From: Bradyrhizobium canariense
GTDB lineage: Bacteria; Pseudomonadota; Alphaproteobacteria; Rhizobiales; Xanthobacteraceae
NCBI RefSeq assembly: GCF_900105125.1
Contig: NZ_LT629750.1
Span: 7,219,001-7,283,000 of the forward strand
DNA length: 64,000 nt
Direction: 5' to 3'
This document shows, piece by piece, positions 46,341 to 63,908 of the stretch. The position numbers were made by a program, and so were the translations under genes. The notes beneath the pieces are model-generated. The model was not told the DNA's origin and did not search any database. It was given only the letters and a program-made list of their open reading frames with translations. Positions within the stretch are counted from its first letter, which is position 1. Each line of letters begins with the position of its first letter.

Positions 46341-46469
46341 CAAAACGCGCGTTGAGACGGACGATTCTCATCTACGAAAAAAATCTGTCGGCCTGAGCGA
46401 ACTTCCACTCTCGCATCTCATGGCCATCTCGCCCTCCCGCTCGGTGAGAAGCGCCAATTGGCCCGAAAC

Positions 46470-46796
46470 TTAGTTCAAGACCGATTTCGCCTTGCGGAAG
46501 AGCACGCTGTCGCCGTTCCGGCTGATTTCGAGCGCACCTGCCTGGTGCGGTGTTGAGAAAGCCACACTCTGACCGGGTGCAAGAACAGACACGACACGGA
46601 TCGGCGTTCCCGCCATGCCCTGCGCAAGGGTCGTGACAACATGGAATCCGTCGCGCTCGACGGTGTAGTAGGCGACACCGGACACCTCGCCGAGGTCGAT
46701 GCTCTTGGCAGCAATCGGACGCAGGCCATCGGCATGGGCGGCCTCCAGAGAGGCCAAGGCGAATACAGCGGCAACAAGCATGCTACGGATCGACAT
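46470..46796 (-). CDS. Small exported protein of unknown function
   Basis: A 108-residue protein with a signal peptide (MSIRSMLVAAVFALASLEA, cleavage near AHAD). A strong AAAGGAGA lies upstream of the ATG at 46796. The mature part (YYTVERDGFHVVTTLAQG, SVLAPGQSVAFSTP) looks like one small beta-sandwich. The family is not recognised. It ends 48 bases after the SDR gene on the same strand, so it may be part of the same transcript and under the same TetR control. Confidence 0.68.
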   Translation of the reverse strand: MSIRSMLVAAVFALASLEAAHADGLRPIAAKSIDLGEVSGVAYYTVERDGFHVVTTLAQGMAGTPIRVVSVLAPGQSVAFSTPHQAGALEISRNGDSVLFRKAKSVLN

Positions 46797-46844
46797 ATCG
46801 ATCTCCTTTGGGTTGCGACATAAAACCTGTAAAGCGCACGGCAT

Positions 46845-47582
46845 CTAGGCGATCGCGCCGCCGTCGACGGTCAACGCCGAGCCGGTAATGTACTGAGCTT
46901 TGGCGCTCGCCAGGAACGCCACAGCGTTGGCAATGTCCTCGACCGCGCCATAACGGCCGAGTGCGGTGATTTGCTGGAGCGTGCCGGCGAACGGGCCGTT
47001 TGTCGGGTTCATGTCGGTGTCGATCGAGCCCGGCTGCACGAGGTTGACCGTGATCTCCTTGGGGCCAAGCTCCCGCGCCAGACCTTTTGTGAATGCGACC
47101 AGCGCCGACTTCGACCCCGCGTATACGCTGAGGACCGAGGCAGGCACGCGGTCGGCGAAGAAACTTCCGATGGTGATGATGCGACCGCCCTTGGTGAGGT
47201 GGGCCAGCGCGGCCTTGCTTGCGACGATCGGCGCGCGCACGTTGACGTTCAGGATTGCGTCAATATCCTCGAGCGAGATGTCCTTCAGCTCCGCCACCCG
47301 AAGAATCCCGGCATTGTTGACGAGGATGTCGAGGCCGCCCAGTTTGGCGACCGTCCTCTCGACCGAAGCCTGGACAGCGGTGACATCAGCGCTGTCGGCC
47401 TGGATCGCCACGGCCCGACGCCCGTGCGCTTCGATCGCGCGGACCACCTCTGCGGCACGCTCCGCGGATTTCTCATAGGTGATCGCCACATCCGCGCCCT
47501 CGGCGGCCAGCGCCTTGGCGATCGATGCGCCAATCCCTCTGCTCGCGCCTGTCACCAGGGCCCGCTTTCCCGTTAGCATCAT
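46845..47582 (-). CDS. SDR family oxidoreductase controlled by adjacent TetR
   Basis: A 245-residue classical SDR: TGASRGIGASIAKAL cofactor loop, NNAGIL, catalytic Ser and Tyr in the VLSVYAGSKSAL block, and the C-terminal DGGAIA. A tandem ATGATG start is preceded by GGAAG. It faces a TetR regulator across a 99-base intergenic stretch holding two copies of an operator-like sequence. Such SDR/TetR pairs usually handle a xenobiotic or signal aldehyde/ketone that also acts as the inducer. The substrate is unknown. Confidence 0.87.
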   Translation of the reverse strand: MMLTGKRALVTGASRGIGASIAKALAAEGADVAITYEKSAERAAEVVRAIEAHGRRAVAIQADSADVTAVQASVERTVAKLGGLDILVNNAGILRVAELKDISLEDIDAILNVNVRAPIVASKAALAHLTKGGRIITIGSFFADRVPASVLSVYAGSKSALVAFTKGLARELGPKEITVNLVQPGSIDTDMNPTNGPFAGTLQQITALGRYGAVEDIANAVAFLASAKAQYITGSALTVDGGAIA

Positions 47583-47594
47583 TGTTCTCTTCCT

Positions 47595-47671
47595 TTCTGT
47601 ATCAATCGACACAGAATTATCTAAGCCATTGATTGCCAGCGTCAAGTGAATTATGTGTTGATTGTTACAGA
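47595..47671. promoter_or_regulatory. Paired TetR-type operators
   Basis: Two related sites face each other between the SDR and TetR genes. Site 1 is TTCTGT (47595-47600) with ACAGAA (47611-47616) as a palindrome around ATCAATCGAC. Site 2 (47652-47671), read on the minus strand, is TCTGTAACAATCAACACATA, which matches site 1 at 17 of 20 positions. Spacing and symmetry fit binding of TetR dimers that repress both genes. Confidence 0.65.
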
Positions 47672-47681
47672 AAGGACGGTA

Positions 47682-48287
47682 ATGGCGATTACCGGGCGAC
47701 CCAGGGGATTTGATCGCGACGCGGCGCTCGAGGCTGCCATGCTGCTGTTTTGGCGCAAGGGCTTCGCGGCGGCCTCGATGAACGACCTGTGCGACGCCAT
47801 GAGCATCCGTTCGCCGAGCCTTTACGCGGCCTTCGGCAGCAAGGAGGCGCTCTATCTCGAAGCGGTCGAGCATTACGTCCAGACCATCGGACCTCCGGTC
47901 TGGGACAAGCTTGCGGAAGGGACGACCGCTCGCGCCGGTGTTGAAAACCTTCTGCTTGCGGGGACCGAGACGCTGCCGGAATCCGGGGCGATGCCAGCGG
48001 GTTGCATGGCGATGCTGGCGGCCGTCAGCGACGAGTGGCCGGCCGCGATTACCGACGTCGTCGGCAAGGTCCGACTTGAAGTGCTGGGCAAGTTGCGGTC
48101 GCGCCTGAAAACTGGCGTGGCCGAAGGCGAACTGCCCGCCTCGACGGACATCGATGGCCTAAGCCGGTTCTATCTGAGCGTCTTCCAGGGGATGGCAATC
48201 CAGGCGCGAGACGGCGCCACCCCGGCCGAATTGAGAAGCATCGCCACAGCGGCCATGGCGGCTTGGCCGAGCAACGGGAGGAAATAG
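47682..48287 (+). CDS. TetR family transcriptional regulator
   Basis: A 201-residue TetR-type repressor. The N-terminal helix-turn-helix (about 8-52) contains FDRDAALEAAMLLFWRKG and the recognition-helix region SPSLYAAFGSKEALY. The C-terminal ligand-binding helices are less conserved. The ATG at 47682 has AAAGGA upstream. It is divergent from the SDR and almost certainly represses that gene and its own through the paired operators. A DUF1488 gene follows in convergent orientation. Confidence 0.9.
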   Translation: MAITGRPRGFDRDAALEAAMLLFWRKGFAAASMNDLCDAMSIRSPSLYAAFGSKEALYLEAVEHYVQTIGPPVWDKLAEGTTARAGVENLLLAGTETLPESGAMPAGCMAMLAAVSDEWPAAITDVVGKVRLEVLGKLRSRLKTGVAEGELPASTDIDGLSRFYLSVFQGMAIQARDGATPAELRSIATAAMAAWPSNGRK

Positions 48288-48362
48288 GCCGTGGGAAATA
48301 CGCTTCTCGACAGTGGCGAATCGGCACGCATCAGGCCGTCGCTGATGGCGGCCGCAATTGTT

Positions 48363-48623
48363 TCAAAAATTTGCGGCAACCAGATCATAAGAACCTCTGC
48401 TTCCGCGCGTATAGAGCTTGGCCGCGGCGGCACAGATCAAATCACGGTTGGAATCGAACGCGTTCAGAAAGCCCGATTCATCGGGGCCGGCATCTGGTTG
48501 AATTCGCCTCAAGGCCTCTTCATTTATAAAAAATGATGCTTCCATCGCGCTGTCGTGTCCCCAAAATCGCACGGCACGCCGCATTGAGTCATATGAACGA
48601 CTATGATTTGGAAAATCAATCAC
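48363..48623 (-). CDS. DUF1488 family protein
   Basis: An 86-residue protein beginning with GTG at 48623 (MIDFPNHSRSYD). It matches the DUF1488 pattern: an N-terminal SRSYD, the VRFWGHDS block, a FFINEEAL strand-helix and a late DSNRDLICAAAAKLY. DUF1488 proteins are small, cytosolic and of unknown function. The start has no clear ribosome-binding site. The gene is convergent with the TetR gene and is the last recognisable unit before a gene-poor stretch. Confidence 0.72.
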   Translation of the reverse strand: MIDFPNHSRSYDSMRRAVRFWGHDSAMEASFFINEEALRRIQPDAGPDESGFLNAFDSNRDLICAAAAKLYTRGSRGSYDLVAANF

Positions 48624-48657
48624 GGGGTCGAGGCCGATTAATTCGTGCCCGGTCCCA

Positions 48658-48710
48658 GGCTGTTCTTATATCGACGGCTGTTCTCATATCCGAGGCTGTT
48701 CTCACAGGGA
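48658..48710. repeat. Tandem repeat, 18-base unit
   Basis: Units GGCTGTTCTTATATCGAC (48658-48675) and GGCTGTTCTCATATCCGA (48676-48693) are followed by a partial GGCTGTTCTCACAGGGA. An 18-base unit keeps reading frame (6 residues). Confidence 0.75.
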
Positions 48711-48965
48711 GTGGAATCTGCGAACCGTCATTGTTGAATGCGTGTTGCAGTGTTCGCCCGGTCGCAACAAGTAATTGTCCACGGATTTGTCTGAGCGACT
48801 TAATGCGTTCAGCCCACCGCCGTTCAATGTTTCGATGCACACTCAGTGGATATATGGCGCTCATTAGGTCAACCTCGCTGACCCGCTCTTACCTGAGATA
48901 ACGTCCTAAGGATGGGACTCTCTCGGTAGACGAAGTCGCAGAAGCGTGGAAGGTTCCAAGCGAAG

Positions 48966-49004
48966 GGCCGAGTGACAAGGCCGAGTGACAAGGCCGAGTG
49001 ACAA
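48966..49004. repeat. Tandem repeat, three copies of a 13-base unit
   Basis: GGCCGAGTGACAA occurs three times without a mismatch at 48966-48978, 48979-48991 and 48992-49004. The unit of 13 bases would break a reading frame, arguing that this part is non-coding. Confidence 0.88.
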
Positions 49005-49267
49005 GGGAGTTCACGACTGCCACCATCCATTTTACGGAATCCTGTGCGGGCCGCCGGCGGGCGTGATCTTTCCGACTTGTCGATCGTGTCGATCAATATC
49101 CGCTGTTCGAGCCGACATCACTTTAATCTACGAAGATTTCGGCTTTTGCCGAAGCGAGGTTGGTTGCCCGATAAGCTCGCGCTCCTCCTTTAATCCTTGG
49201 GCTTTAATTTTTGGACTCGAAGCGTAGGAGTTGTGTACTGCGAAACTGGTTATTATAGGAGGGCGTC

Positions 49268-51748
49268 GTGAGTAAAATTACGAGTTTCCTATCATCATCA
49301 AGCATTCTTCTGTGTGTATCGCTTGCATCGGGTGCTTTGGCTCAGCAAATCACGGGCACGCCGGGTTCGCCAAGCGCCACGACAACGATCGATGGCAAGC
49401 AGCTTCCGCCGGAGCCTCCGAAATTCGACGGCGTGATCAAGGAAGACGCCAAAGATTCCAAGCCTTACTGGCCACCATCGGTCGTGCCGCCCAAGGGCGC
49501 ACCAAACGTGCTTTTGATCATGACCGATGATCAGGGTTATGGCGTGTCTGGTACTTTCGGCGGTGTCATCCCGACTCCGAGTATGGATCGCATCGCCAAG
49601 GCGGGTTTGCGCTACACGGAGTTTCACTCAACGGCGCTTTGCTCGCCAACGCGGGCAGCGCTCATCACTGGCCGAAACCACCATTCGGTCGGCTACGGTG
49701 TCATCGGTGAAATGTCCACCGGCTATCCGGGCTACGATTCCGTCATCGGTCCCGAGAGCGCGACGATCGGAACTATTCTTCGCGATAACGGATATGCCAC
49801 GTCGTGGTTTGGTAAAAACCACAACACTCCCACCTATCTTTACAGCGCGGCGGGACCATTCGACCAATGGCCGGTCGGCATGGGATTCCAGTACTTCTAC
49901 GGCTTCATGGGCGGCGAGACCGACCAGTGGACACCCTATCTTTATCGCAACACGACTCAGATTTTTCCGTGGATCGGCAAGCCCGGCTACAACCTCACTA
50001 CCGATATGGCGGACGAGGCCATCAGCTACATGAACGGATTGAACGCTGCCGCACCGGACACGCCGTTTTTTCTTTATTACGTCCCGGGCGGCACGCACTC
50101 GCCGCATCAACCGAAGAAGGAATGGATCGAGAAGTTCAAGGGCAAGTTCGACATAGGCTGGGAGAAGATGCGTGACCAGATCTTCGCCAACCAGAAGCGG
50201 CTCGGGGTTATCCCGGCGAACACCCAACTCACCCCTTGGCCGGACAGCCTGCCGAAGTGGGACTCGCTTTCATTCGTGCAAAAGAAACTCTACGCGCGGG
50301 AAGCGGAGGTGTTCGCCGCTTACGCAGCCTATACCGACAATGAGATCGGTCGCGTCATACAGGCGGTCGAGGATATGGGCAAACTCGATAACACGCTGAT
50401 CATCTACATCAGCGGGGACAACGGCACCAGCGCTGAAGGCACTCTTGAAGGCACCCCGAACCAGATGACCGCCTACAACGGCATTCTGAAACTCCCTGAA
50501 ACCGAGCTGATGCTGCATTACGAGGATTGGGGTTCCGAAAAAACCTACCCGCACATGTCGGTGGCGTGGTCGTGGGCGTTTGATACACCGTTCAAGTGGA
50601 CCAAGCAGGTTGCATCGCACTTCGGCGGCACCCGGCAAGGCATGGTCATCTCTTGGCCCGGCCACATCACGGACGCCGGTGGCATCCGCACCCAATTCCA
50701 TCACATCATCGACATCGTGCCGACGATCCTCGAAGCGGCCGGCATCCAGGCTCCCGCCACGGTCAATGGCATCACGCAAAAGCCCATCGAAGGCGTGAGC
50801 ATGGCCTATACGTTCGACAAGGCCAACGCCAACGCACCTTCGAAGCGCGACACGCAGTATTTCGAAATGTTCGCCAATCGCGGAATCTACCACGATGGCT
50901 GGTACGCGTGCACAACACCGCCAGTGCCGCCTTGGCTTTTAGGAACGGCAAAGCTTCCTGAGATCAACGACTACAAGTGGGAACTTTACAACATCGCCGA
51001 CGACTACTCGCAATACAATGATGTCGCAGACAAAAATCCTGACAAGTTGCGCGAGCTGCAAGCCTTGTTCCTGACGGAGGCGGGGAAATATCAGGTCTTG
51101 CCGCTGGATAATTCAATCCTGCCGCGCATTGTGACCCCGCGCCCAAGTGCGACCGCCGGACGAACCGTCTTCACATATTCCGGCGAGAACGCTGGCATCC
51201 CTGACGGTAACGCGCCGAGCATTCTCAATAAGGATTACACGATCACGGCCGAGGTTACCGTTCCTAAAGGCGGTGCGGAAGGAATGATCGTAACTCTAGG
51301 CGGTCGCTTTGGCGGATACGCCCTCTACCTGCTCAATGGCAAGCCGGTCTTCGTCTACAACTTACTCGATCTGGAACGGTATCGCTGGGAAGCCGGCGTG
51401 GGAGGTCGTGACTTGTTTAGCGACGCACTCAAGCCCGGCAAACACACGATCGTGTTCGATTTCAAATACAACGGCCCCGGCCCGGGCAAGGGTGGCACCG
51501 GTGTATTGACGGTCGATGGCAAGCTGGTGGCCGCAAAGACGATCCCGCACACGATTCCGTTTCTTATGGCTATCGACGAAACGTTTGACATCGGCAGCGA
51601 TACCCGCACGGCAGTGGACGACAGTTACAAACTTCCGTTCCGCTTCACCGGCAAGATCGATAAACTCATGTACAAACTTGGTCCTGAACAGATGACGAAT
51701 GACGAACAAAAGCTCATTCGACACGCACTCGAAAGAGCGAGAGACTAA
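49268..51748 (+). CDS. Exported Cys-type arylsulfatase
   Basis: An 826-residue sulfatase of the alkaline-phosphatase-like superfamily. An N-terminal signal peptide (about 1-25, cleavage near ALAQ) sends it to the periplasm. The metal-binding MTDDQGYG (residues 85-92) and the sulfatase signature C125-S-P-T-R (FGly precursor) are intact. Maturation needs the separate formylglycine-generating enzyme, not seen here. A C-terminal beta-sandwich (about 630-800) completes the protein. It begins with GTG preceded by a perfect TAGGAGG. It probably releases sulfate from organic sulfate esters. Its base composition is lower in GC than the rest of the window, suggesting transfer. Confidence 0.9.
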   Translation: MSKITSFLSSSSILLCVSLASGALAQQITGTPGSPSATTTIDGKQLPPEPPKFDGVIKEDAKDSKPYWPPSVVPPKGAPNVLLIMTDDQGYGVSGTFGGVIPTPSMDRIAKAGLRYTEFHSTALCSPTRAALITGRNHHSVGYGVIGEMSTGYPGYDSVIGPESATIGTILRDNGYATSWFGKNHNTPTYLYSAAGPFDQWPVGMGFQYFYGFMGGETDQWTPYLYRNTTQIFPWIGKPGYNLTTDMADEAISYMNGLNAAAPDTPFFLYYVPGGTHSPHQPKKEWIEKFKGKFDIGWEKMRDQIFANQKRLGVIPANTQLTPWPDSLPKWDSLSFVQKKLYAREAEVFAAYAAYTDNEIGRVIQAVEDMGKLDNTLIIYISGDNGTSAEGTLEGTPNQMTAYNGILKLPETELMLHYEDWGSEKTYPHMSVAWSWAFDTPFKWTKQVASHFGGTRQGMVISWPGHITDAGGIRTQFHHIIDIVPTILEAAGIQAPATVNGITQKPIEGVSMAYTFDKANANAPSKRDTQYFEMFANRGIYHDGWYACTTPPVPPWLLGTAKLPEINDYKWELYNIADDYSQYNDVADKNPDKLRELQALFLTEAGKYQVLPLDNSILPRIVTPRPSATAGRTVFTYSGENAGIPDGNAPSILNKDYTITAEVTVPKGGAEGMIVTLGGRFGGYALYLLNGKPVFVYNLLDLERYRWEAGVGGRDLFSDALKPGKHTIVFDFKYNGPGPGKGGTGVLTVDGKLVAAKTIPHTIPFLMAIDETFDIGSDTRTAVDDSYKLPFRFTGKIDKLMYKLGPEQMTNDEQKLIRHALERARD

Positions 51749-52200
51749 GCGGAGCAAGGTTCGGCCTATGTCCAGACTCGCGCTGATCCGGAATGGCACT
51801 TAGCTGACGTGGGGCTCGCGTTCGGCGCCGTCGGTTGGTCCGGGTTGAAGCGGACGTCAGATCGTCCAGCGCAAATTGGGTGAGGGGGGCGGAAGACCAA
51901 AGAGGCCGCAACGTCCTGGCCCGGAGCCGCACGCGGCCACACGAGCGGCCCTATAGTCTCCACCGTATCGCCTTGCTTTGGTCAAACCGGGATGAAGTCT
52001 GGGGCAGGATTTCGTCGAGCTGGAGCCTGACCGGCGAAAAATGGGGACCGGTTTCCCCGCGCGACAGACGCCGGGCGTTTGCGCGGCGATCAGACTCAAA
52101 GAAGGAAATGCGATCGTGATCCGATCCAATAGGATCATGATCTCGCGTAAATCCGCCAGCCGTCCTTGGGCGGTGACATTGGACTAAGTATGGAGCGCCA
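51749..52200. repeat. Intergenic stretch with dispersed palindromic repeat
   Basis: No convincing gene in 452 bases. At about 52000-52142 is a repeat with the ACCGGTTTCC core also seen at 14503-14551. It ends in an imperfect inverted repeat GATCGTGATCC (52112-52122) / GGATCATGATC (52132-52142). The rest (51750-52000) contains no domain-like frame; it may be decayed sequence but I cannot name a source. Confidence 0.6.
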
Positions 52201-53184
52201 ATGCAATCGACGCTGAACCCGAAACAATCCGATCCGAGCGATGTGCTTGTGATCGCGCCCGATGTCGTTCTGGTCGCGCCCGGGGATAAAGAGCTTTCCG
52301 GCGTGGCGCACGACGCCATCAGCCGTCCCTGGAATCCGCAGCCCCAGGTGGGATCCGATTTCTCCGCCGTCCCACCGGTGCCACCTGTCGATACGACGTT
52401 TCGCCCTGCTGATATCCATGATGTCCGGATTCCGGGCTACCGGCCCTCGGGTGGCGGGCGCGCGATACGCGCCTTCACGGCGGTGCTGTTGGCCACGTGC
52501 ATCGGTGGCGCCGCCATCGCCTGGCAGTCTTCCGGCAACCTGGCCAAACAGATGGTCGCGAAGTGGGCGCCAAAGTTCGTCGTGACTTCATTATTGCTGC
52601 CGCAGGAAAAACCGGGAGCGACCGCGCAGCCGACGCCACCTCCGGTTCAGGCGGCAGTGGCGAGCGACGCGCCTCCGCAACCGGCAGCTCCGGCTCAAAC
52701 CGCAGCGGAAACAGCTCCGGCTCAGAGCGCACCGGAAAGTGTCGCGCCGGCCATCGCCGCGCTGCCGCCGGAATCGGCGCAGTCGATCCAGTCCATGGCG
52801 CGCGATCTCGCAACCGCGGGGCAAGAGATCGAGCAGCTCAAGGCCAGCGTCGCGCAGCTCAAGGCCAGCCAGGAACAAATGTCCCGTGACCTTGCCAAAG
52901 CTTCTGAGGCCAAAGCTTCCGAAGCCAGAACTTCTGAAGCTAAGGTTTCCGAGCGCAATCTGCGGCCCAGGCCGTTACCGCCTCCACCGCGATGGGCCGC
53001 CACGCCGGCGCGCCGGCCGACGCCGACATATCCGCCCGCGCAGGCCTATCCGGCGCCGCAAGCCGCGGTAGCTCCCCTGCCGCCACCAGCCGCAGCGCCT
53101 TACGTGCCACCGCAAGCCACGCCGCAGCCGCTCACCGATCCCGAGCTGTCATCGGTGCCGCGGCCGCCGATGCCCGTGCGGTAG
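52201..53184 (+). CDS. Proline/alanine-rich single-pass membrane protein of unknown function
   Basis: A 327-residue protein. Residues 1-85 are soluble and Pro-rich, one transmembrane helix spans about 87-105 (IRAFTAVLLATCIGGAAIAW), and the rest is a low-complexity linker. That linker contains a coiled-coil at about 195-240 (SMARDLATAGQEIEQLKASV, then repeated KASEAK/TSEAK units). It ends in a Pro/Ala-rich tail. No enzymatic motif is present. The start ATG is the first after the repeat region. It could be a cell-envelope anchor; this is inference only. Confidence 0.62.
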   Translation: MQSTLNPKQSDPSDVLVIAPDVVLVAPGDKELSGVAHDAISRPWNPQPQVGSDFSAVPPVPPVDTTFRPADIHDVRIPGYRPSGGGRAIRAFTAVLLATCIGGAAIAWQSSGNLAKQMVAKWAPKFVVTSLLLPQEKPGATAQPTPPPVQAAVASDAPPQPAAPAQTAAETAPAQSAPESVAPAIAALPPESAQSIQSMARDLATAGQEIEQLKASVAQLKASQEQMSRDLAKASEAKASEARTSEAKVSERNLRPRPLPPPPRWAATPARRPTPTYPPAQAYPAPQAAVAPLPPPAAAPYVPPQATPQPLTDPELSSVPRPPMPVR

Positions 53185-53255
53185 CAGTGGTTCTTTCACG
53201 CCGCAGGTTCGGCGCCTGAGTCTATGGCGGTAGCCTGCTGTTTCAGCGATAACGA

Positions 53256-56200
53256 TCAAGCGGCCTCCATCACGGCCGGTTCGTGGACCATGAAAATGAA
53301 CCGCCGCTCTTGCCCCTCAAGTTCTGCAGTTATCTCCTCCTCGGGCTCTGCTCGCGATAGCGCGCGCGCCAGCTCCGAATTGATGCTCAAGTACCCATTC
53401 TGCTCGTCCGATTGTCCCTCGCCAATCGCATAGGAAAGCGGTCGCTGGCTGTCGCGATCGACAAACTTGATTACCACACGATCGCCGATCGCCAATCCGG
53501 CGCCTGAGCCGAGATTTGCGGCATTGGCGTTATCATCAGCAGGCAAGCTCTCGATCGGCTCCCCCACCACCCGATGTTCAGTGTAACGGTATGGTTCGAT
53601 CTGGCCGCCGATCGGTCGAATGCCCATCTGCTCTAACGTTGTCAGCAAATCACCGACCACTCCGTCGTTATCAATGATATAGTCAGAGCCGAAGCAGCGC
53701 CAAAACGTCCATCCGACCCGTTCTAGAATCCGCTGCCGCCGCATGTCGTCGGCCCAGCGTTCAGGTCCATGGTACTGGTCGCCATCGCATTCGATCGCCA
53801 AGCGGCGACCGCCGTCACCCTCAACCACCAGGTCAATGAAAAAACCTTCCGAACCGACTTGCGGCGTAACCTTGTAGCCATGCTCAGTAAGACGCGTGAA
53901 TAAGTCTCGCTCAAAACCCGACTGACACAGCTCGATTAGGTTCGAGGCCTTCTGCGCCGAAGCTGGCATCGGGTCTCGGAAGTGCTGAATCACCCGAGCT
54001 TTCAGATCCCTCGGATTAAGAGTGTCTAGCTCAACGGAGCGCACCAGGTACATGCGGTCTCGTGCGCGAGAAAGTGCCACGTTGAAGCGTTGCGCATACT
54101 GCTCAGCGGTTTGCGCGTAACGGTTAGATGGGTCGGCAACCATCGAAAGGAATACAATATCGCGCTCATTGCCTTGCAATGTAGCGCTGTCGCCGCAGAC
54201 AATGCCATGGTGGATGAAAGCCACTTCGCCGATCCGATCGAGTAACATCTTCTGAATCAATGCTGCCTGATGGCCACCGATCAGTGAAATCACACCAATT
54301 GTGCGAGGCTTTTGAGTTTCGGGATTCCTTGCTTGAGAGGGATCGGAAATGATCGACGTGATCTCTTCAACGATAACCTCCGCTTCGCGATCGTTGATCT
54401 TCGACTTGCCACGGCGTTTGCCGTCCTGGACCAAAATATCGATCAGCGGCGGATCCAGCCGTTCGCTGGCAGTCGGCACGCGGAGTGGGATAAGGGGTTG
54501 CGTGTAGAAGTTCGTCGAGAAACGGATGATCGATTCGACGCAACGGAAATGCTCCTTGAGCATGACGAAATTGCCCGGGAACATCACCCGCGCCAGATCG
54601 TAGAGTGAGCCGCCAGGTTCAACCTGGGCTCGATAGGGCATCTCGCTCAAGAAGTTGTTGCGCAAGCGTCTGATGTTGGCGAGCGAAATGAACGCCGCGG
54701 TCGGGCTAATCTGCTTGTCGTCGCCGACCACCAGCAACTTCTTCCCCCGCAGGATCGCTGGGAGGTCTCGCGCATCCGACTGCGAGGCCTCATCAAGAAT
54801 GACGAGATCGAAACTCGCCAGCTTGGACGGCAGCTGTTCGGAGACACGCCACGCGGGCATAATCCAGCAAGGAACAGCATCGTAGCAGTTCTCCATCGCC
54901 TCGCGCGCATCCCGCCTGAAGAGGTTGGCACGATTGCCTGTGCCGGCGCCGATCCTCTTGATGATGTTTGCGAAGATGCCGAGTGCGGTCTTGTGCGCAT
55001 TGGTCATCGTCCGCGTGAGATTATAGAACGTTCGCTCTTTGACGAGTTTGGCGAAGGAGTCGCGCAATCGCTTCTCAATATCCGACCGTTCCCGGTTGAG
55101 GCTTTCGATTTGTTTGACGGATCCGCTTCTCTCTAAGAACGCGATCGATGTCGCCCAATCCCAGGAATCGGTCCAATCCGAAGGAAAGCATGGGTCTCGC
55201 TCGCCAACTGCCGGCTCGGTCTTGAGCCGCTCGGCCCAGTTGGGCGCCCCGGCCTGCGCGATGGCTCGTGCGCCATGTACGATAGCCTCGAAGCTCAGTG
55301 CGAGCATGCGAATACGATTAAGTGTCGCTAGGAACGCGGACCATTCTTTTTCGACCTGTTCCGCACTGAACTGGGCGCAGCCCAACCGCTCGTCAAGGAC
55401 TAGCCGGCCTTCGGTGAGGCAGCGCACGTCCCGTGCCAACAGACCCGTTAGCTTCGCGATAGTCTCACGCGCCTCGTTCAAACGAGCTGCCCGTACCGTC
55501 CTCGACAATGTTTCGGAAAAGTCATTGATCGAGCCGTTATCAGCCATGATCTTGGCCGCATCACCGGGGTTGCGGAGCGCTTCGGTCAGATATTTTGTGG
55601 CCTTGGACGTCTTGGTGGGAATCTCGGTGCTTAGGTTCTCGAGCAGACCGAGTAACGTTTCAAGTTGCGGCGGCGAGTCTTCTGCAAAGTCAATTGACGG
55701 GGGAATTTCCATCAAATCGCGCAATGCATGCCAACGTGCACGTATCGCAGGCAATTCTCGGCGCAGGGTCACAAACCGCAACGCGTGTTTCCATTCGTCC
55801 GTAGTCGCGGGCGGCCGTCCCGCAACCCGTACCTGCTCGAACGGTGTCTTGAAGGACCTATTCCCAAACGCCATAAGACCGAACGGGTTCTTTCCTTCGC
55901 AGAGTGCGATCCAAATCTTGTCGGCGGCTCGATCGGCTAGTTCCGGTGGGTACTGAACTGGTCTAGCCAGGAACGATTGGTAGTTCTTGAGGAAGTTACG
56001 CATGTCGCGCTGAAATTCATACAGCGTCGGATTGACCCGCCGCATGCGAGCGTCGCCCGCTACCTGGCGCCTGACGATCTCAAGGGCCCAAGGCGCGGAG
56101 CCATAGGCTCTTACCGAAACCACCAAGTCCTCGAAGGCCGTGGCCATTTCATGGGCGCGCGACATGCCGACGCTTGCCACGATACGCTTGATCATCATCG

Positions 56201-58229
56201 CTTGGTGGTTTGGCTGCGACGCTACGAGATTATCGGCTTCAAGTAGATCAAGGTGCCAACCGCCCAGTTCGGCTGCAGCTGGCAACAGGTCGGGGCTTGG
56301 TAGTTCCACGTCAACGAATTCAAGATCGCTGCCAGCACGTTTGCGCGCATCTGCGATCAGATCGACCATCTGCCTGGTCAAGCCGGAACTCTCAAAATTT
56401 ACTTTCGGTCTGTCGGTAAACCAGCCGTGACGATCTTTCTCGGCGACCAGCTTCGTTGCCAACTCGAACGCATTGTACGAGCTGCCGGGAATAACGCCGA
56501 AATGCAACGAGGCAAGCGCATCGAGCTTACGATCGATTGATTTCAGTTGCTGCCGGTCTTTCACGATGTTGCTCGAGAGCTGGCTGATGATGGTCTTTTG
56601 CTTCGATAAGTTTGCGTCGACCGTGTTGACGATCTCCAGCATAAGTTGGACCGCTTTTTCGATCTGCTTGGTCCCTTCGCGTTCCGATGTGGTGACGCTG
56701 ATCGCGAGATCGCGGATACCCTCGGGAAGATGGTCGCGAATAACCTTAAGCGCAGTCTCGCCATGGGACACGACTAGCACTCTTTGTCCCGTCGCCAGCA
56801 TGTGACTGATGATGTTCGCGATCGTATGCGTTTTGCCCGTACCAGGCGGACCCTGAACAACAATCCCGTCCGCCTTCTCAAGGCGGCGGACAATCTGTAC
56901 CTGGTCGTCATTGAAGGCTTTGGGGAAGAACAGATCACTATGATCGGGATCCAGCTGTTCCTGATTGACCTCCGCGGACACCGTATCGCGCGCTCCCAGC
57001 GTGGTCCCGAGCGGCTCATAGTCCCGCTCGCGATCATCGCGGGCACCCATGATCAGTGTGCGGGCGGCTCCGGCCAATTTCACACCACCGCCTTCCTCCG
57101 GCGCGACCTCGTCCTTCAAACGCTGGATATCGCGCAACGTCGCGTTGATCGATCGCCGGCGAGCGTAGACGACCCACCGATCGCTAACTACGAGGCGATC
57201 TTCTGGCGGTTCCGGCAGCGGCTGGTTCTTTGGGACTTTATGGGTCTCGGGGAGGTATTCGCATTCCGGATCCAGTGCGCCACCGCAAAGCTTCAAGACC
57301 GATGAGAAAGACTCTGCTCGGAACGGCGAAATGCCCTCCGGTTCGTCGCGTTCAATGATCTTCAATTGCCGGCCGCAAATTTGCTCAGCCGCGCCAACTT
57401 GTTCTTCTGCCAGCTTGTCGAAGGCTGTCAGATCGAACCGAGGCGGAAGGTTTCTCGGGCGAATGATGACGTCGGCACCCTTGTCATCGGCTATCTCAAG
57501 CTCCACGCCCAGTTCAATCAGCGGGATCTCGACGCTGAGCATTCCCTTATTCCAACGTGACACACCGACGCCCCAGACAAGTTCAATCGACTCGCTACCT
57601 CCGGAGAGAGACATTCGCTGGGCCAGATCGAACAGGCGTTGATAGGCCTGAATTGAAAGCCGACGTGGGAACTCACGATCGGCCCAGATCTGCCACGTCT
57701 CCTTCATATAGTCGCTGCAGGTAAGCTGAACATCAGGCCGGTCTTCGAGCCGATAGAAGACGTCAAAGTAAGATTCGTCGTCTTTGTCGCTCGCGGGTTT
57801 GAGCGCGGGGGAGCAATCGCTTGGCCTCAGCATACCTTCCGCGATGAGTTGCTCTTTGACAGATGCCGAAACCCGCTCGTGTACTGTTTCATGCAGGGAG
57901 GGTGGGATCCCTGGGTCATCCGACGACTCGATCCATTGCACCGTCTCTTCGGGCGGGGCTGGGGGAGCAGAGCGCTGCAGGCGCTGAGCGCGGAGCCAGA
58001 CAGGGCCTTCGTAGTCCGCTTTGTTGAGCGTGATTCCAGGAAGTTTGCTGAGTTCGTGTTCGTGAAGTACCACCGAGCTTCCGTTGGGCAGCTTGTGTTG
58101 GCTCAAGCGCAACGGAACGCGCTCATCGAGCTTGATCAATGCATTGACGTAATCGAGCAGGCCGATGAACCGCTTCGATGCGGCCTCATTGTCAGAACCC
58201 GTCACTTGGTCCAACGGCAAAACCCCCAT
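53256..58229 (-). CDS. Superfamily 1 helicase with Vsr/DUF559-like nuclease and GreA/GreB-like C-terminal domain; candidate anti-phage protein
   Basis: A 1657-residue protein. The N-terminal region (about 1-430) is not recognised. A DNA2/NAM7-like superfamily 1 helicase core follows: Walker A GPPGTGKT (460-467), a long helical insertion (about 520-1080), the DEASQ box (1146-1150), VVGDDKQISP, HFRCVESIIRF and NVALSRARD. Next is a Vsr/DUF559 (MTES_1575)-type nuclease domain (about 1420-1530), with a Glu in GFERDLF, an Asp in FFIDLVVEG and the E1480-C-D-G block. Residues about 1575-1652 resemble the FKBP-like C-terminal domain of GreA/GreB: IGDRVVIK, then LSINSELARAL and a final beta strand. It is the only gene in its interval and has lower GC than the housekeeping genes. 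Helicase-Vsr architectures are known in prokaryotic defence proteins (Hhe-type), so anti-phage function is plausible but inferred. Confidence 0.85.
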   Translation of the reverse strand: MGVLPLDQVTGSDNEAASKRFIGLLDYVNALIKLDERVPLRLSQHKLPNGSSVVLHEHELSKLPGITLNKADYEGPVWLRAQRLQRSAPPAPPEETVQWIESSDDPGIPPSLHETVHERVSASVKEQLIAEGMLRPSDCSPALKPASDKDDESYFDVFYRLEDRPDVQLTCSDYMKETWQIWADREFPRRLSIQAYQRLFDLAQRMSLSGGSESIELVWGVGVSRWNKGMLSVEIPLIELGVELEIADDKGADVIIRPRNLPPRFDLTAFDKLAEEQVGAAEQICGRQLKIIERDEPEGISPFRAESFSSVLKLCGGALDPECEYLPETHKVPKNQPLPEPPEDRLVVSDRWVVYARRRSINATLRDIQRLKDEVAPEEGGGVKLAGAARTLIMGARDDRERDYEPLGTTLGARDTVSAEVNQEQLDPDHSDLFFPKAFNDDQVQIVRRLEKADGIVVQGPPGTGKTHTIANIISHMLATGQRVLVVSHGETALKVIRDHLPEGIRDLAISVTTSEREGTKQIEKAVQLMLEIVNTVDANLSKQKTIISQLSSNIVKDRQQLKSIDRKLDALASLHFGVIPGSSYNAFELATKLVAEKDRHGWFTDRPKVNFESSGLTRQMVDLIADARKRAGSDLEFVDVELPSPDLLPAAAELGGWHLDLLEADNLVASQPNHQAMMIKRIVASVGMSRAHEMATAFEDLVVSVRAYGSAPWALEIVRRQVAGDARMRRVNPTLYEFQRDMRNFLKNYQSFLARPVQYPPELADRAADKIWIALCEGKNPFGLMAFGNRSFKTPFEQVRVAGRPPATTDEWKHALRFVTLRRELPAIRARWHALRDLMEIPPSIDFAEDSPPQLETLLGLLENLSTEIPTKTSKATKYLTEALRNPGDAAKIMADNGSINDFSETLSRTVRAARLNEARETIAKLTGLLARDVRCLTEGRLVLDERLGCAQFSAEQVEKEWSAFLATLNRIRMLALSFEAIVHGARAIAQAGAPNWAERLKTEPAVGERDPCFPSDWTDSWDWATSIAFLERSGSVKQIESLNRERSDIEKRLRDSFAKLVKERTFYNLTRTMTNAHKTALGIFANIIKRIGAGTGNRANLFRRDAREAMENCYDAVPCWIMPAWRVSEQLPSKLASFDLVILDEASQSDARDLPAILRGKKLLVVGDDKQISPTAAFISLANIRRLRNNFLSEMPYRAQVEPGGSLYDLARVMFPGNFVMLKEHFRCVESIIRFSTNFYTQPLIPLRVPTASERLDPPLIDILVQDGKRRGKSKINDREAEVIVEEITSIISDPSQARNPETQKPRTIGVISLIGGHQAALIQKMLLDRIGEVAFIHHGIVCGDSATLQGNERDIVFLSMVADPSNRYAQTAEQYAQRFNVALSRARDRMYLVRSVELDTLNPRDLKARVIQHFRDPMPASAQKASNLIELCQSGFERDLFTRLTEHGYKVTPQVGSEGFFIDLVVEGDGGRRLAIECDGDQYHGPERWADDMRRQRILERVGWTFWRCFGSDYIIDNDGVVGDLLTTLEQMGIRPIGGQIEPYRYTEHRVVGEPIESLPADDNANAANLGSGAGLAIGDRVVIKFVDRDSQRPLSYAIGEGQSDEQNGYLSINSELARALSRAEPEEEITAELEGQERRFIFMVHEPAVMEAA

Positions 58230-58445
58230 ACCCGTAACCCCCCATATACGAACACGCTATTCTAATTGGGTTGTTGTTCACTATGCACTTATACAAATGG
58301 TTGAATTAGCAGCGTTTCCTGCTGCTGTCGATAAGCGCCAAATAACGGGCACCGCCAGAGTTATGGCTGTGGGCTACGATGATCTAGCGCTTGCCATGGG
58401 CGAGCGATCCAGTGCAGAGCCGCTTCGGCGGAACGATCATCCTTG
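58230..58445. promoter_or_regulatory. AT-rich promoter region of the helicase-nuclease gene
   Basis: The first 120 bases upstream of the helicase ATG (58230-58350) are AT-rich, with AACACGCTATTCTAATTGGG and CACTTATACAAATGG. On the minus strand a GGGGGG purine run lies just before the start codon. No specific operator is recognised. The structured repeat begins beyond about 58450. Confidence 0.4.
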
Positions 58446-58449
58446 ACAC

Positions 58450-58960
58450 TTTCCCCGACACAGGAATATCCCCCGCCCCGTTCCGCCTCCCAGAGGGGCG
58501 TATCGCGATCGTCACGAACGCGAGGCGGGATGCGGTGGACGCAGCAGCGTCGGGCGCGCGACTGAACTCGCAGGGCGGCTTCATTTGAAGTTCGTGAGCG
58601 ATCAGGGCGAGCGGACGAACGGCGCTAGTTGTGGACGGTGAAGCCGTGTGGTCCTGGCACCCGTTGCTGGTGTCAAGTTGGCGGAGGTGTTGCGAGCCCA
58701 ACCGGGATTCGATGCGCCCTATTCGTCAACGACGGTGACAAGACGAATTCGTCGCCGAGGAGAGCGCGAAATAAGCCGTTAAAACCATTGCGCAGGGAAG
58801 GCCGGGTGTTTCCGGTGAACCTGTGGTGACGACACTCGTGTGCCACTACCACCACCGCACACGGGGCTGCGGGTGCAGCGGGCACCCGGCTTTCCCTGCG
58901 CCCTCTCTTTCTTGGGCGAATGCTTCATGCAAGCCTCGGGCGCATCGTGCCGCGGGATCG
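58450..58960. repeat. Structured dispersed repeat (about 500 bases) with ncRNA-like folding
   Basis: A non-coding stretch of the type I recall as common in Bradyrhizobium-group genomes (its TCCCGCCTCCCAGAGGGGCG-like and CGATCGTCACGAACGCG-like blocks). The 3' half folds strongly: GCGCAGGGAAGGCCGGGTG (58790-58808) pairs with CACCCGGCTTTCCCTGCGC (58883-58901), 19 positions with a single G-T wobble. Inside it, CGTGTGC (58837-58843) pairs with GCACACG (58857-58863). An upstream CCGCCTC / GAGGCGG stem is also possible. A pyrimidine-rich CCTCTCTTTCTT follows. It is not protein-coding in any frame that I can defend. Confidence 0.6.
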
Positions 58961-58969
58961 CGGATGCAT

Positions 58970-59140
58970 ATCCCGCGTCATTCCGGGATGGTGCGTTAGC
59001 ACCAGACCTCAGATGTGCAATTGCACATCGGGGAATCCCGAGATTCTCGGATGTGCAATTGCACATCGTAGTTCGATGCGGAGCCTGTCATCGGGCCGCG
59101 CATCCGCGCGGACCCGGTGGCATCGCCCCGGAATGACGGC
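58970..59140. repeat. REP element with two identical 18-base palindromes
   Basis: GATGTGCAATTGCACATC, a perfect 18-base palindrome, occurs twice at 59012-59029 and 59050-59067, separated by 20 bases that themselves hold GAATC-CCGA-GATTC. Outer sequences near 58978 (CGTCATTCCGGG) and 59126-59138 (GCCCCGGAATGACG) are inverted relatives of the REP ends at 13491-13587. Confidence 0.78.
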
Positions 59141-59176
59141 CTCGGACCGATCCGCTCTTTGAAAACTGAATCGAAA

Positions 59177-61555
59177 TTAGCCAGCCGCCCGCCGAGGCAT
59201 CGCATCCGGCGCTATTTCGGCCGGTGCGGGAATCTGCATCAGAATGGTTTGACCTGCGGACGCGATCTCGATTCCGCACTCCTGGAAGCGCCGCTTCATG
59301 CGGCGGTTGAATTCGCGCTGCACCGGCCAGCGACCGCTGTCGGTGCAGCGAATCTGGCCGACGATCGACGCCATCGAGCCGTCGACCTTGTCGACGCCCC
59401 ACAATTCGAGATCGCCGCGGATCGCCTGCCGGTATTCGGGCTCGCGGCGCATTTCGGCGACGATATCCTTGAGGATCTGGCCGGCGCGGTCGGTGTCTTC
59501 CTTGTAGGAAACGTTGACGCTGACGGCCGCATTGCCGGCGCCCCGGCTTGCATTGGTGAGCGTCGTCACGGCGCTGAAGGGAACGATGTGCAGCGCGCCG
59601 TCGCCGGCGCGCAGACGAATGGTACGGATCGATACATTCTCGACGGTGCCCGACAGGCCGGACACCGTGACGTTGTCGCCGACCTGGACGGTGTTTTCCA
59701 GCAGGAGAAACAATCCGGTAATGAGGTCCTGCACCAGCTTCTGCGAGCCGAAGCCGATGGCGATACCGACGATCCCGGCGCCGGCCAGCAGTGGGGCTAC
59801 GTTGACGCCGATTTCGCTCAGCGCTGTCAAGCCGACCACCATGACGATCAGGCACAGCAGCGCCGTTCGCAGCATCGGCTGAAAAGTACGCAGCCGCGCG
59901 GCGCGCGCGAAGTGACCGTCGCGCGACATCGCAGTGAGCTGACGATCCATCAGCGCATTGCTTGCCTCCCAGATCGCCGCCGCCGCAAGCGCGGCGATGC
60001 CGATCGTCGCCAGCGCCGCCAACAACCGGCTGCCGATCTGGCCGCCGTAGAACCAGACGATGGCATCCACGCCCCAGACCTCAAGCAGCGCAACGAAGCC
60101 GATGAAGGCGATCACAGCCGAGACGATTTTGCGCAGCAGCGGCAGATAGCGATTGGCGCGGGTCTCCAGGCCCGGGAAGCGCTGCAGGATATCCGGGCTG
60201 ATCCGGAAACCGCGATCGATCAGGCTCAGCACCACGATGATGGCGAGACGGGTGATCAGTGCGACCGCAACGGTGCCGACAAAATACTGCAGCAGCAGCG
60301 AGTAGCCGTTGCGGATATTCAGCGCCCACACCGCCCACAATGCGAGGTCGAGCGCGATCGCAAGATAATGCCAGAGACCTGCGACGCGATTGCGCACCAT
60401 GGCGGCTGTGCCCGCGCGGCCTTCCGGCGCGCGAATGGCCTCGGCGACCTGTCGGCGGCATTGCAGGATGATGACGACGATAAAGAGATGCACGATCAGC
60501 AGCACCAGACGCAGCAATGCCGCGTAGCCGGCGCGATGCAGGCCCAGCAGCAGCGCCACATTCGCAAAGGCGATGCCGGATACGCCGACGGTGACGATGC
60601 GCCGCGCCCAGATCTCGATATAGGCCGCGGTCTCGGCGCGAACACGGAACAGGCCGAAAGGTCCCGCCAGCGCCCGCGCGACACAGATCAGCCCGCGCGA
60701 CAGCGCGTAGGCATTGACGACCGCAAGGATCACGAGCCGCGTCGTTACGAGATCGCCGATCTCGGTGCCCAACAGCATGGTGGCGACACCGACGAAGACG
60801 AGCACCGGGAGCAGCTCGAGCGCGAGGCGTCCCAGCACGAACGGCAGCCTGATCAGCGACTGCCAGGCACGCGCCAGACTGAGACGTCGTTGATGCAGTT
60901 CGCCTTCCGCGGTGACATCCGCCGCGGAGGAGGGCGGATCGATCATGGCCGGCGTCTGCACAGGCGCCCGCGCCGTTTGCGGAAGGCGCGCTTCCAGGAA
61001 CGCTACCGGCCGCCTGATAAGACGGAAGATCAGCCATTCGGCGGCGAAGGCGCAGCCGAACACCAGCGCCAGTTTCCACGCGATATCGAGCAACTGATCA
61101 TAGGCGGTGGGATCGTTGGCCGTTCGCACGATCCAGTAATAAAACGCCGGAAAGTGCGTCAGCGTCCGAGCCATATCGGCGACCTCGTGCGAGATCTCGC
61201 CGACCTGCTCGGACACCGTCAGCAAGAGCTGCGCGCCAAGGCTGTCCGCCGTGAGGGGAATCGCAGGCTGCGGTTCGGGCGCGGGTGGCGCGGCCTGGAC
61301 CTGCGGCGCGGCCTGTGCCTGCGGCACGGCTTGGGCGATCGCGCGCAGCGTGTCGATCATCTGCGCGCGCTTGTTGTCGTCCTGAAGCGTATCGAGCGCC
61401 CGCTGCGCCTGATCGGGCGTCAGTACATTGGCGATGTTTGTAGCGGGAGCGGCTACACGAGGCGCATTATTGGGCGCAGCGCCGGTCTGGGCGAAAGCAG
61501 GGAAGGCAAACAATGCGCAGGCGAGCAGGATCGACGGCAAGAGTTTTTGCGACAC
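59177..61555 (-). CDS. Large MscS-family mechanosensitive channel
   Basis: A 792-residue protein. A signal peptide (MSQKLLPSILLACALFAFPAF from the GTG at 61555) is followed by a periplasmic region with a Gln/Pro/Ala linker, then about 10 transmembrane helices and the MscS core. The pore-lining helix is near GIAIGFGSQKLVQDLITG, followed by the beta domain (NTVQVGDNVTVSGLSGTVE) and the C-terminal cytosolic cage. The extra transmembrane part resembles MscK/YbdG-type channels. It opens under membrane tension to release ions on osmotic downshock. The frame is open up to an ATG at 61633, but the GTG start gives the better signal peptide and has AGAGG upstream. Confidence 0.88.
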   Translation of the reverse strand: MSQKLLPSILLACALFAFPAFAQTGAAPNNAPRVAAPATNIANVLTPDQAQRALDTLQDDNKRAQMIDTLRAIAQAVPQAQAAPQVQAAPPAPEPQPAIPLTADSLGAQLLLTVSEQVGEISHEVADMARTLTHFPAFYYWIVRTANDPTAYDQLLDIAWKLALVFGCAFAAEWLIFRLIRRPVAFLEARLPQTARAPVQTPAMIDPPSSAADVTAEGELHQRRLSLARAWQSLIRLPFVLGRLALELLPVLVFVGVATMLLGTEIGDLVTTRLVILAVVNAYALSRGLICVARALAGPFGLFRVRAETAAYIEIWARRIVTVGVSGIAFANVALLLGLHRAGYAALLRLVLLIVHLFIVVIILQCRRQVAEAIRAPEGRAGTAAMVRNRVAGLWHYLAIALDLALWAVWALNIRNGYSLLLQYFVGTVAVALITRLAIIVVLSLIDRGFRISPDILQRFPGLETRANRYLPLLRKIVSAVIAFIGFVALLEVWGVDAIVWFYGGQIGSRLLAALATIGIAALAAAAIWEASNALMDRQLTAMSRDGHFARAARLRTFQPMLRTALLCLIVMVVGLTALSEIGVNVAPLLAGAGIVGIAIGFGSQKLVQDLITGLFLLLENTVQVGDNVTVSGLSGTVENVSIRTIRLRAGDGALHIVPFSAVTTLTNASRGAGNAAVSVNVSYKEDTDRAGQILKDIVAEMRREPEYRQAIRGDLELWGVDKVDGSMASIVGQIRCTDSGRWPVQREFNRRMKRRFQECGIEIASAGQTILMQIPAPAEIAPDAMPRRAAG

Positions 61556-61798
61556 GAGGGCCTCTTTGAATATGGGCACGACCGCAAAACCGGAATCGGT
61601 ATCTGCCCTCGCGCGCGAGTCATGTCGGATCAACCCTTTTCGCCGTTATCATGTGTCGAAAGTTTGCCACTGCGGCGGCGTTCTCTTGGCATTTGCTTTT
61701 GGCATTTGCCCCTGTCAGTTGCCTTTGGCATTTTCCAGGTCACAAAAATGCCGCAGCGATTGATCGCCGCTAACTGTTGCGGGACCCTGCGGATCCTA

Positions 61799-63577
61799 CT
61801 ACGCCAGCAACACCGCGTCGGCGCCGTTGACCGCTTCGGCGCTGTCGATCACCGTCCGCTCCAGCGAGGCAGCCTGCACCGAAATATTCTCGGCAAAGAA
61901 CCGCGCCAGCGTGACGTAACGCTCTGGATCGCCTTCGCTGGCGTCGCGGGCCGCCAGCGCTTCTCCGGCCAGCACGCATCCGCCGAGCGTCGCGCCGAAC
62001 AGCCGCAGATAGGGCGTCGCACCCGCCAGCGCTTCGTTTGGCGCCGAGGTGACGCGCTCCAGCAGCCAGCGGCTGGTGCGGTCCAGCGAATTCAGCGCGT
62101 CGCGCAGTTTGGCGCCGGTCGTGCCAAATGCCGGATCGTTCGATGTTTCGACCCGTATGACGATCTCCGTGAGCTCGCCGAGCAAGGCCCAGACCGCCTC
62201 GCCGCCATTGGCGGCGAGCTTGCGCGTCACCAGGTCGATCGACTGGATGCCGTTGGTGCCTTCGTAGATCGAGGTGATGCGCGCATCGCGAGAATACTGC
62301 GCGGCGCCGGTCTCTTCGATGAATCCCATGCCGCCATGGATCTGCACGCCGAGATACGCCACTTCATTGCCGATGTCGGTGGAGAAGGCTTTTGCTATCG
62401 GCGTCAGCAGCGCGCCGCGGGCGGCGGCGTCGGCCCGCGTTTTGGGGTCCTTTGCGCGCACGGAGACGTCGAGCGCCACGGCCGTCGCGTAGCAAATCGT
62501 GCGCGCCGCCGCGGTGAGGGCGCGCATCTGCATCAGCATCCGCTTGACGTCGGGATGCACGATGATCGCATCCGAGCCGTCGCCCTTCTTGCCGATGGCG
62601 CGGCCCTGGCGGCGGTCCTGCGCATAGGCCAGGGCCTGCTGATAGGCGCGATCGGCGATGCCGACGCCTTCGAGACCGACCCCCAGCCGCGCCTGGTTCA
62701 TCATCGTGAACATGCACAGCATGCCGCGATTTTCCTCGCCGATCAGGTAGCCGATCGCGCCGCCATGGTCGCCCATCGTCATGGTGCAGGTTGGCGAAGC
62801 ATGCATGCCGAGCTTGTGCTCGATGCCGCTCGGATAAATGTCGTTGCGCTGGCCCAGCGAGCCATCGGCGTTGACGAGGAATTTCGGAATCAGAAACAGC
62901 GAAATGCCTTTGGTGCCCGCGGGCGCGTCGGGCAATCGCGCCAGCACGAAATGCACGATGTTATCGGTCATGTCGTGGTCGCCATAGGTGATGAAGATCT
63001 TGGTGCCCTTGATGCGATAGCTGCCGTCGGCCGCGCGCTCGGCGCGGGTGCGCAGCGCGCCGACATCCGATCCCGCCTGCGGCTCGGTGAGCTGCATGGT
63101 GCCGGTCCATTGGCCGGACACCAGCTTTCCGAGATAGATCTTCTTCAGTTCCTCGCTGCCATGCGCATCGAGCGCTTCGATCGCGCTGAGCGTCAGCAGC
63201 GGGCAGAGGCCGAACGCGGCATTCGAGGCGCTCCAGATTTCGGTGCAGGCGGCATTAATCGCGAGCGGAAGGCCCTGGCCGCCGAATGCTTCCGGCCCCG
63301 ATACGGCGTTCCAGCCGGCGGCCGTCCAGCGCTGATAAGCGTCGGGCCAGCCAGGCGCGGTGGTCACCTTGCCATCGTTGAGCTTGATGCCGTTCTCGTC
63401 ACCGACGCGATTGAGCGGCGCCAGCACGTCGCCGGCGAATTTTCCGGCTTCCTCCAGCACGGCCGCGGTGATGTCGCCGTCGAAGTCGCCGTAATGACCG
63501 GCTTCCATGGCGGCTTGCAGGCCGGCGCCATGGTTGAGGGCGAGCAGCATGTCGTTGATCGGCGCGCGGTAGGTCAT
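61799..63577 (-). CDS. Acyl-CoA dehydrogenase, DmdC-like long subfamily
   Basis: A 592-residue FAD-dependent acyl-CoA dehydrogenase with the extra C-terminal segment of the DmdC (3-methylmercaptopropionyl-CoA dehydrogenase)-like subfamily, about 190 residues longer than glutaryl-CoA dehydrogenase. Visible blocks are MQLTEPQAGSDVGALRT (flavin contact), the helical core ending QIHGGMGF, and the catalytic Glu in SIYEGTNGIQS. It uses an electron-transfer flavoprotein. Its substrate is unknown; fatty acyl-CoA and DMSP-derived acyl-CoA are both seen in this subfamily. The start at 63577 fits the subfamily N-terminus MTYRAPINDML. Confidence 0.87.
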   Translation of the reverse strand: MTYRAPINDMLLALNHGAGLQAAMEAGHYGDFDGDITAAVLEEAGKFAGDVLAPLNRVGDENGIKLNDGKVTTAPGWPDAYQRWTAAGWNAVSGPEAFGGQGLPLAINAACTEIWSASNAAFGLCPLLTLSAIEALDAHGSEELKKIYLGKLVSGQWTGTMQLTEPQAGSDVGALRTRAERAADGSYRIKGTKIFITYGDHDMTDNIVHFVLARLPDAPAGTKGISLFLIPKFLVNADGSLGQRNDIYPSGIEHKLGMHASPTCTMTMGDHGGAIGYLIGEENRGMLCMFTMMNQARLGVGLEGVGIADRAYQQALAYAQDRRQGRAIGKKGDGSDAIIVHPDVKRMLMQMRALTAAARTICYATAVALDVSVRAKDPKTRADAAARGALLTPIAKAFSTDIGNEVAYLGVQIHGGMGFIEETGAAQYSRDARITSIYEGTNGIQSIDLVTRKLAANGGEAVWALLGELTEIVIRVETSNDPAFGTTGAKLRDALNSLDRTSRWLLERVTSAPNEALAGATPYLRLFGATLGGCVLAGEALAARDASEGDPERYVTLARFFAENISVQAASLERTVIDSAEAVNGADAVLLA

Positions 63578-63908
63578 GACCGTGGTCTCGCTAAGGGTGT
63601 CTCGCCAAGGGATCGGAACGGCGGACTGCCGTCTTCCCACGAAATTGCCGTTCTCTCAACTCTTCGGAAGGGCCGGAGGAGTACGTTCCGGAGAGGGTTG
63701 GCGGGGCGGCGGTCCGCCGCAACCGACGTCATTTCGAGCCATAAAGACATTATTATGGAGGATTATAAGGGACAAACCGGGTAGCCTGATTTCGCCTGAA
63801 AATCAGGCTCCAGGCTGTTGAAATGGTTCAACTCCCTCTATAGACCGGCGTTGCCGGAGGGAATCCGCAGGGGACGTCACCGCCCCCGGTGTGTTTCCGA
63901 CAGCCTGT
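63578..63908. other. Intergenic region before tRNA-Gln
   Basis: 331 bases without a credible gene. An AGCCTGATTT (63783-63792) / AAATCAGGCT (63800-63809) 10-bp stem with a CGCCTGA loop lies about 100 bases before the tRNA. There is no T-run, so it is not clearly a terminator. The interval should contain the promoters of the divergent acyl-CoA dehydrogenase gene and of the tRNA; I do not see a confident -35/-10 pair. Confidence 0.4.

Follow-up and report, generated by a model that had tools for sequence, protein, structure and literature searches.

A very large helicase-nuclease of Bradyrhizobium canariense with a GreA-type tail, probably an anti-virus DNA-cutting motor

Defence proteins that combine a helicase with a nuclease are common, and how they discriminate foreign from self is mostly open. 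Here we describe a protein of 1657 amino acids (aa), the query, encoded in a 64,000-nucleotide stretch of Bradyrhizobium canariense DNA (contig NZ_LT629750.1, positions 7,219,001 to 7,283,000; the window), in which a superfamily 1 (SF1) helicase and a Vsr-like nuclease are followed by a domain of GreA/GreB C-terminal type. We think it probable that this very large protein works as a DNA-cutting motor directed against viruses, and at roughly even odds we read it as a single-gene anti-phage or anti-mobile-element helicase-nuclease that is directed to transcription complexes through RNA polymerase (RNAP). By sequence its closest catalogued relative is the PADLOC candidate PDC-S37, which scored highest among the PADLOC models (222 bits, E 4e-66, two stretches). 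The stronger stretch, residues 1116-1533, takes in the second half of the helicase and the nuclease; PDC-S37 is, however, a candidate model only, and this stretch includes neither the query N-terminus nor the Gre tail. HheA (NCBIfam NF042953, PADLOC Hhe) likewise aligns over the second half of the SF1 helicase and the C-terminal nuclease (1114-1534), but with 172 bits against a cut-off of 2000, and the Hhe type, which a first-pass annotation made from the sequence letters had brought up, was therefore rejected. No DUF4011 was found among the best 25 of 32 Pfam matches, the remaining seven being weaker than E 0.085, in agreement with that annotation's failure to see the DUF4011 signature. The ProA anti-phage protein (NCBIfam NF058533) aligns over residues 421-1534, and membership was rejected at 241 bits against a cut-off of 1500, with the query N-terminus unaligned.

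According to excerpts of three papers (PMC7527559, PMC4598747, PMC7749165), Gre factors bind RNAP with high affinity through their globular domain, which contacts the beta' rim helices at the secondary channel, and a coiled coil bearing acidic tip residues enters the channel; HelD holds on to RNAP at that site by a Gre-like region linked to an SF1 NTPase (PMC7749160, also in excerpt). The query shares with GreA, GreB, Gfh1 and Rnk the fold of the C-terminal domain and an S/T-P-L-[AG] loop, but it lacks the catalytic coiled coil and has the domain fused to a helicase-nuclease. The Gre-like region of HelD is N-terminal, comes with a coiled coil and sits on a UvrD-like NTPase, whereas the Gre-type domain of the query is C-terminal, has no coiled coil and sits on a UPF1-like helicase with a nuclease; the query was rejected as a HelD member on this domain position and on its helicase being nearest to UPF1/SEN1. 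The solved-structure sequences that best match the helicase core are those of SEN1, UPF1, SMUBP-2 and DNA2, from which the query differs in being prokaryotic, in the roughly 545 residues that separate its first AAA_11 stretch from the DEASQ half, and in its C-terminal nuclease and Gre domain. In the open literature searched, we recognised no paper as describing the helicase-nuclease-Gre combination.

The Walker A, DExx, GDxxQ and SRA blocks of a UPF1/DNA2-like SF1 helicase are present in order. Every motif that the first-pass annotation had quoted for a DNA2/NAM7-type helicase was found, starting at residues 460 (GPPGTGKT), 1146 (DEASQ), 1169 (GDDKQISP) and 1383 (NVALSRARD), and Pfam AAA_11 (438-571, 9e-19) and AAA_12 (1218-1395, 3e-13) both score over cut-off. 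Its Vsr/DUF559-type nuclease core was borne out as well: Pfam matches are restriction-type MTES_1575 (1438-1530, 4e-30) and DUF559 (3e-5), ECDGD lies at residue 1480, and structure prediction with a structure search gave a Vsr-like PD-(D/E)XK fold with its catalytic acidic residues, matching the DNA endonucleases Vsr and I-Bth0305I. Absence of a nuclease fold from the predicted structure had been held to count against a defence role, and the fold is present. In an alignment of 113 sequences of 1580-1760 aa, which includes the query and the query's own database record, Walker A, DEAS, GDDxQ and motif VI of the helicase and the nuclease residues E1440, D1466, E1480 and D1482 are conserved in at least 97% of sequences, and thus are not due to chance. 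Residues 1-430, which had not been recognisable by eye, were still assigned no fold or family by structure prediction and searches. Within the long insertion between the helicase blocks, residues 651-1000 are among the least conserved of the protein (50-residue windows), and because of this poor conservation we regard them as a candidate sensor.

The GreA/GreB C-terminal domain, at approximately residues 1578-1651 and the part that tells most about the protein, was absent from the first-pass annotation. In the query PF01272 falls below its gathering score (19.3 of 26.9 bits; 24.1 bits in the genome search), and it is over the Pfam cut-off in the relatives at L034, L040 and L068 (L and G numbers are our handles). 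A PDB profile search gave a hit to GreA, and the predicted tail matches the Gre globular-domain fold of GreA, Gfh1, GreB, Rnk and HelD (Foldseek, VIA). The tail is present in 111 of the 113 aligned sequences, with S/T at position 1618 in 110 of the 111. The model contains no coiled coil before the globular domain, residues ~1536-1577 being a low-confidence linker, which makes transcript cleavage an unlikely role and leaves docking as the natural interpretation. On the strength of the model, we infer that the Gre domain is a docking module and not a transcript-cleavage module; a GreA/GreB transcript-cleavage factor was rejected, as the modelled C-terminus has no coiled coil with an acidic tip.

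From these parts a mechanism can be proposed. The UPF1-like SF1 motor would move along single-stranded nucleic acid, and the Vsr-like nuclease would cut the DNA on which the motor works. The GreA-type domain would tether the enzyme to RNAP at the rim of the secondary channel. The tethered enzyme could then patrol transcription complexes and act where RNAP has stalled, has been hijacked or is caught up with invading DNA, the helicase and the DNA nuclease acting on nucleic acid exposed at the docked complex.

By profile, 8 of the 91 family open reading frames (ORFs) from the fetched loci have a Gre tail; seven of these contributed to the profile, so that only L110 is independent of it, and five of the eight had already been picked up by an earlier profile to which they had not contributed. 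The Gre-tailed members do not form a single clade on the helicase tree (a quick tree of 89 rows over helicase columns 1116-1400, from which the tail was left out): the Gre label requires 5 changes, and monophyly of the 19 Gre-tailed rows is rejected (approximately unbiased (AU) test, p 0.003). L110 is Gre-tailed and its close relative L114, also from a viral contig collection, has a different, non-Gre tail. Many relatives terminate within about 50 residues past the aligned nuclease, and the tail of L106 has a weak DUF3320 match (E 0.02). Since the Gre tail is absent or replaced in other relatives, we read the family as one helicase-nuclease chassis with exchangeable C-terminal targeting modules, of which the Gre tail would be one. 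We hold only tentatively the fuller version in which the protein rides host RNAP via its Gre domain, reads infection from transcription complexes that are stalled or perturbed by phage, and then unwinds and cuts the template, the chassis being retargeted by exchange of its C-terminal modules. A Paractinoplanes member (L058, 8453-14272) has a C-terminal part that by eye resembles arginase/agmatinase, which could reflect either fusion to a metabolic enzyme or two genes read through as one.

The same tail evidence bears on an alternative that we consider unlikely, namely a defence helicase-nuclease whose Gre-like domain does not bind RNAP and is an internal regulatory or protein-protein adaptor, with the helicase sensing on DNA in a Hachiman- or Hhe-like manner. 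An adaptor sits poorly with a tail that matches Gre, Rnk and HelD better than other folds, that keeps its S/T position so consistently and that appears on separate branches of the tree.

Full-length homologues are patchily distributed, being found in 2 of 25 same-genus genomes; 4 of 385 genomes of the class match at E 1e-60, some in pieces (own genome included in both counts). Near-full-length homologues range from 83% identity downward among the matches listed, and these homologue figures were drawn from the top 120 of 4431 listed matches, with a bias towards close relatives. Matches were also found in 43 plasmid records, 22 of them covering at least 80% of the query (best identity 43%), and 24 Acinetobacter plasmid records match the family.

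Several homologues lie near genes of defence type. JetD is directly upstream in Chromobacterium (L031), BrxC is ~4 kb downstream in Diaphorobacter (L033), and a type I methylase is 0.2 kb downstream on an IMG/VR contig (L106). On an Acinetobacter pittii plasmid (L165, 9785-14515) a member of the tail-less type follows brxL of a BREX operon by ~60 bp and is possibly a BREX accessory gene; on two Sphingobium plasmids the family gene is ~125 bp behind a restriction endonuclease gene. A Variovorax plasmid has DUF4194 and AAA genes, which we take to be of Wadjet type, ~5-10 kb upstream of the family gene, and on another plasmid a GIY-YIG nuclease adjoins it with AbiE genes 6 kb off. The record of a Microvirga plasmid annotates no gene at this site, and nearby ORFs look transposase-like by eye. 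Neighbours were inspected for seven Gre-tailed loci (the query, G008 (L159), L160, L034, L037, L040 and L107), a count that excludes L045, L068 and L110. GajA and GajB are ~5 kb away in L037, WYL regulators lie within ~0.6 kb in L040 and G008, and a UvrD-type helicase and a PD-(D/E)XK protein are likewise close to the G008 gene; L034 has one weaker neighbour (IrrE/M78 with an RmrA-like match). No recognised defence neighbour was found at the query, at L160 (one ORF scanned) or at L107 (one ORF, scanned singly). In L159 the UvrD-type helicase (1115 aa) and the PD-(D/E)XK protein (884 aa) span 914-8254, opposite the WYL regulator and adjoining the Gre-tailed gene, and could be taken for an AddAB-like pair set in a defence context.

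In a PADLOC scan at E 1e-10, 102 families matched over 129 neighbours and 42 over 119 control proteins; these are counts of matched families (25 of the 102 and 25 of the 42 displayed) and not of distinct proteins, which makes the comparison rough. For the neighbours, models of Wadjet, BREX, Gabija and methylase type reached E 1e-100 or better, and the best match in the control set was of a general regulator type (3e-86). The scan covered 129 of 142 ORFs, 13 being omitted for size (ten of L039 and one each of L041, L071 and L106), from loci chosen by similarity to the query, with L003 and L022 outside the scan. PADLOC gave no match for five proteins scanned singly, those of L069, L060, L034 and L108 (4 of 10) and that of L107. 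The control set (this window and L153-L158 from six relatives) is drawn from a single genus and could itself contain defence genes: it includes cyclase, SAVED/HNH effector and SduA matches and is not defence-free, and several of its families stem from this window's DbpA-type helicase alone.

Homologue context, plasmid carriage and patchiness thus suggest defence activity and support the earlier proposal of a defence system, except at the query locus, where no defence gene was found. The first-pass annotation had held purely housekeeping contexts to count against defence, and this describes the query copy but not the homologues, several of which have BREX, Wadjet, Gabija, restriction or WYL genes nearby. 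The tail counts are compatible with repeated loss as well as with exchange, and the query copy sits among housekeeping-type genes with no defence neighbour. This setting fits a host enzyme of transcription conflict or transcription-coupled repair (HelD-, Mfd- or SEN1-like) whose task would be to remove stalled RNAP, R-loops or damaged DNA, with no part in defence, as do the SEN1 and UPF1 matches and the precedent of HelD, an SF1 protein with a Gre-like domain in RNAP recycling. We think such a housekeeping function improbable for a gene so patchy in its genus and class, with homologues on plasmids and near defence genes. An RNA-directed enzyme, translocating like UPF1/SEN1 on nascent phage mRNA at RNAP and cutting RNA or R-loops, would accord with nearest solved helicases that act on RNA and with a tail placing it near the transcript, but is very improbable given a nuclease that matches DNA endonucleases and a helicase group in which DNA2 and SMUBP-2 were matched too.

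The targeting hypothesis is an unusual one. A domain of RNAP-binding type on separate branches of one helicase-nuclease family offers a concrete and testable idea, sensing via transcription, and if true the protein would stand beside HelD or Mfd as their counterpart in immunity. Should the Gre domain not bind RNAP, the family is still large, little described and defence-associated, and present in several phyla and on plasmids. The idea fits a recent preprint (PMC13174585) in which DRT3 defence is reported to depend on greA and to be triggered by a phage protein whose similarity to GreA is predicted; that study is silent on the helicase-nuclease-Gre family. It is plausible that the Gre site is an immune battleground.

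Table 1. Positions of the described features in the window.
Feature	Position	Strand	Basis
Whole gene, helicase-nuclease-Gre protein, 1657 aa	53256..58229	-	open frame, near-full-length homologues, single genome copy
Conserved N-terminal region, residues 1-400	57030..58229	-	
First helicase block AAA_11, residues 438-571, Walker A GPPGTGKT 460-467	56517..56918	-	Pfam 9e-19; UPF1/NAM7 match in PDB sequences
Long insertion between helicase blocks, residues 572-1115	54885..56516	-	conservation by 50-residue windows
Second helicase half (DEASQ, GDDKQ, motif VI), residues 1116-1405	54015..54884	-	Pfam AAA_12; PADLOC PDC-S37 1116-1533; motif positions
Vsr-like PD-(D/E)XK nuclease, residues 1438-1530	53640..53918	-	
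GreA/GreB C-terminal-type domain, predicted RNAP-docking module, residues 1578-1651	53277..53498	-	
Dispersed intergenic repeat, not thought part of the system	58770..58905	+	35 genome matches including itself; near the gene's 5' end

The gene (ATG start, 1657 open codons) occurs once in the 7.84 Mb, one-contig genome. Its GC content, noted earlier as low, is 0.571 and so below the 0.614 of the window, but this is not peculiar to it, since the neighbouring sulfatase gene has 0.564, the lowest among 40 other ORFs. The seven flanking ORFs (44349-63640) encode a DbpA-type RNA helicase, a short-chain dehydrogenase, a TetR regulator, a sulfatase, an unassigned protein, an MscS-type channel and an acyl-CoA dehydrogenase. 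PADLOC found no defence gene among them, the sole matcher being the RNA helicase with generic helicase models, in line with the first description of the gene as standing alone. The dispersed repeats reported beside it were also recovered: the genome matches of the repeat in Table 1 are 75-100% identical and lie on both strands, and its ends look hairpin-capable by eye. The unassigned Pro/Ala-rich protein at 52201-53184 (+) has no Pfam family at E 1e-5 and is of a type present in 39 of 40 genus genomes, often in more than one copy. Between the gene and the MscS-type gene is a near-perfect inverted repeat (59005-59074; 33-nt arms, 85% complementary, 4-nt gap). A 1555-aa ORF at 59117-63784 (+), antisense to the MscS-type and acyl-CoA dehydrogenase genes, is most likely a spurious frame in GC-rich DNA.
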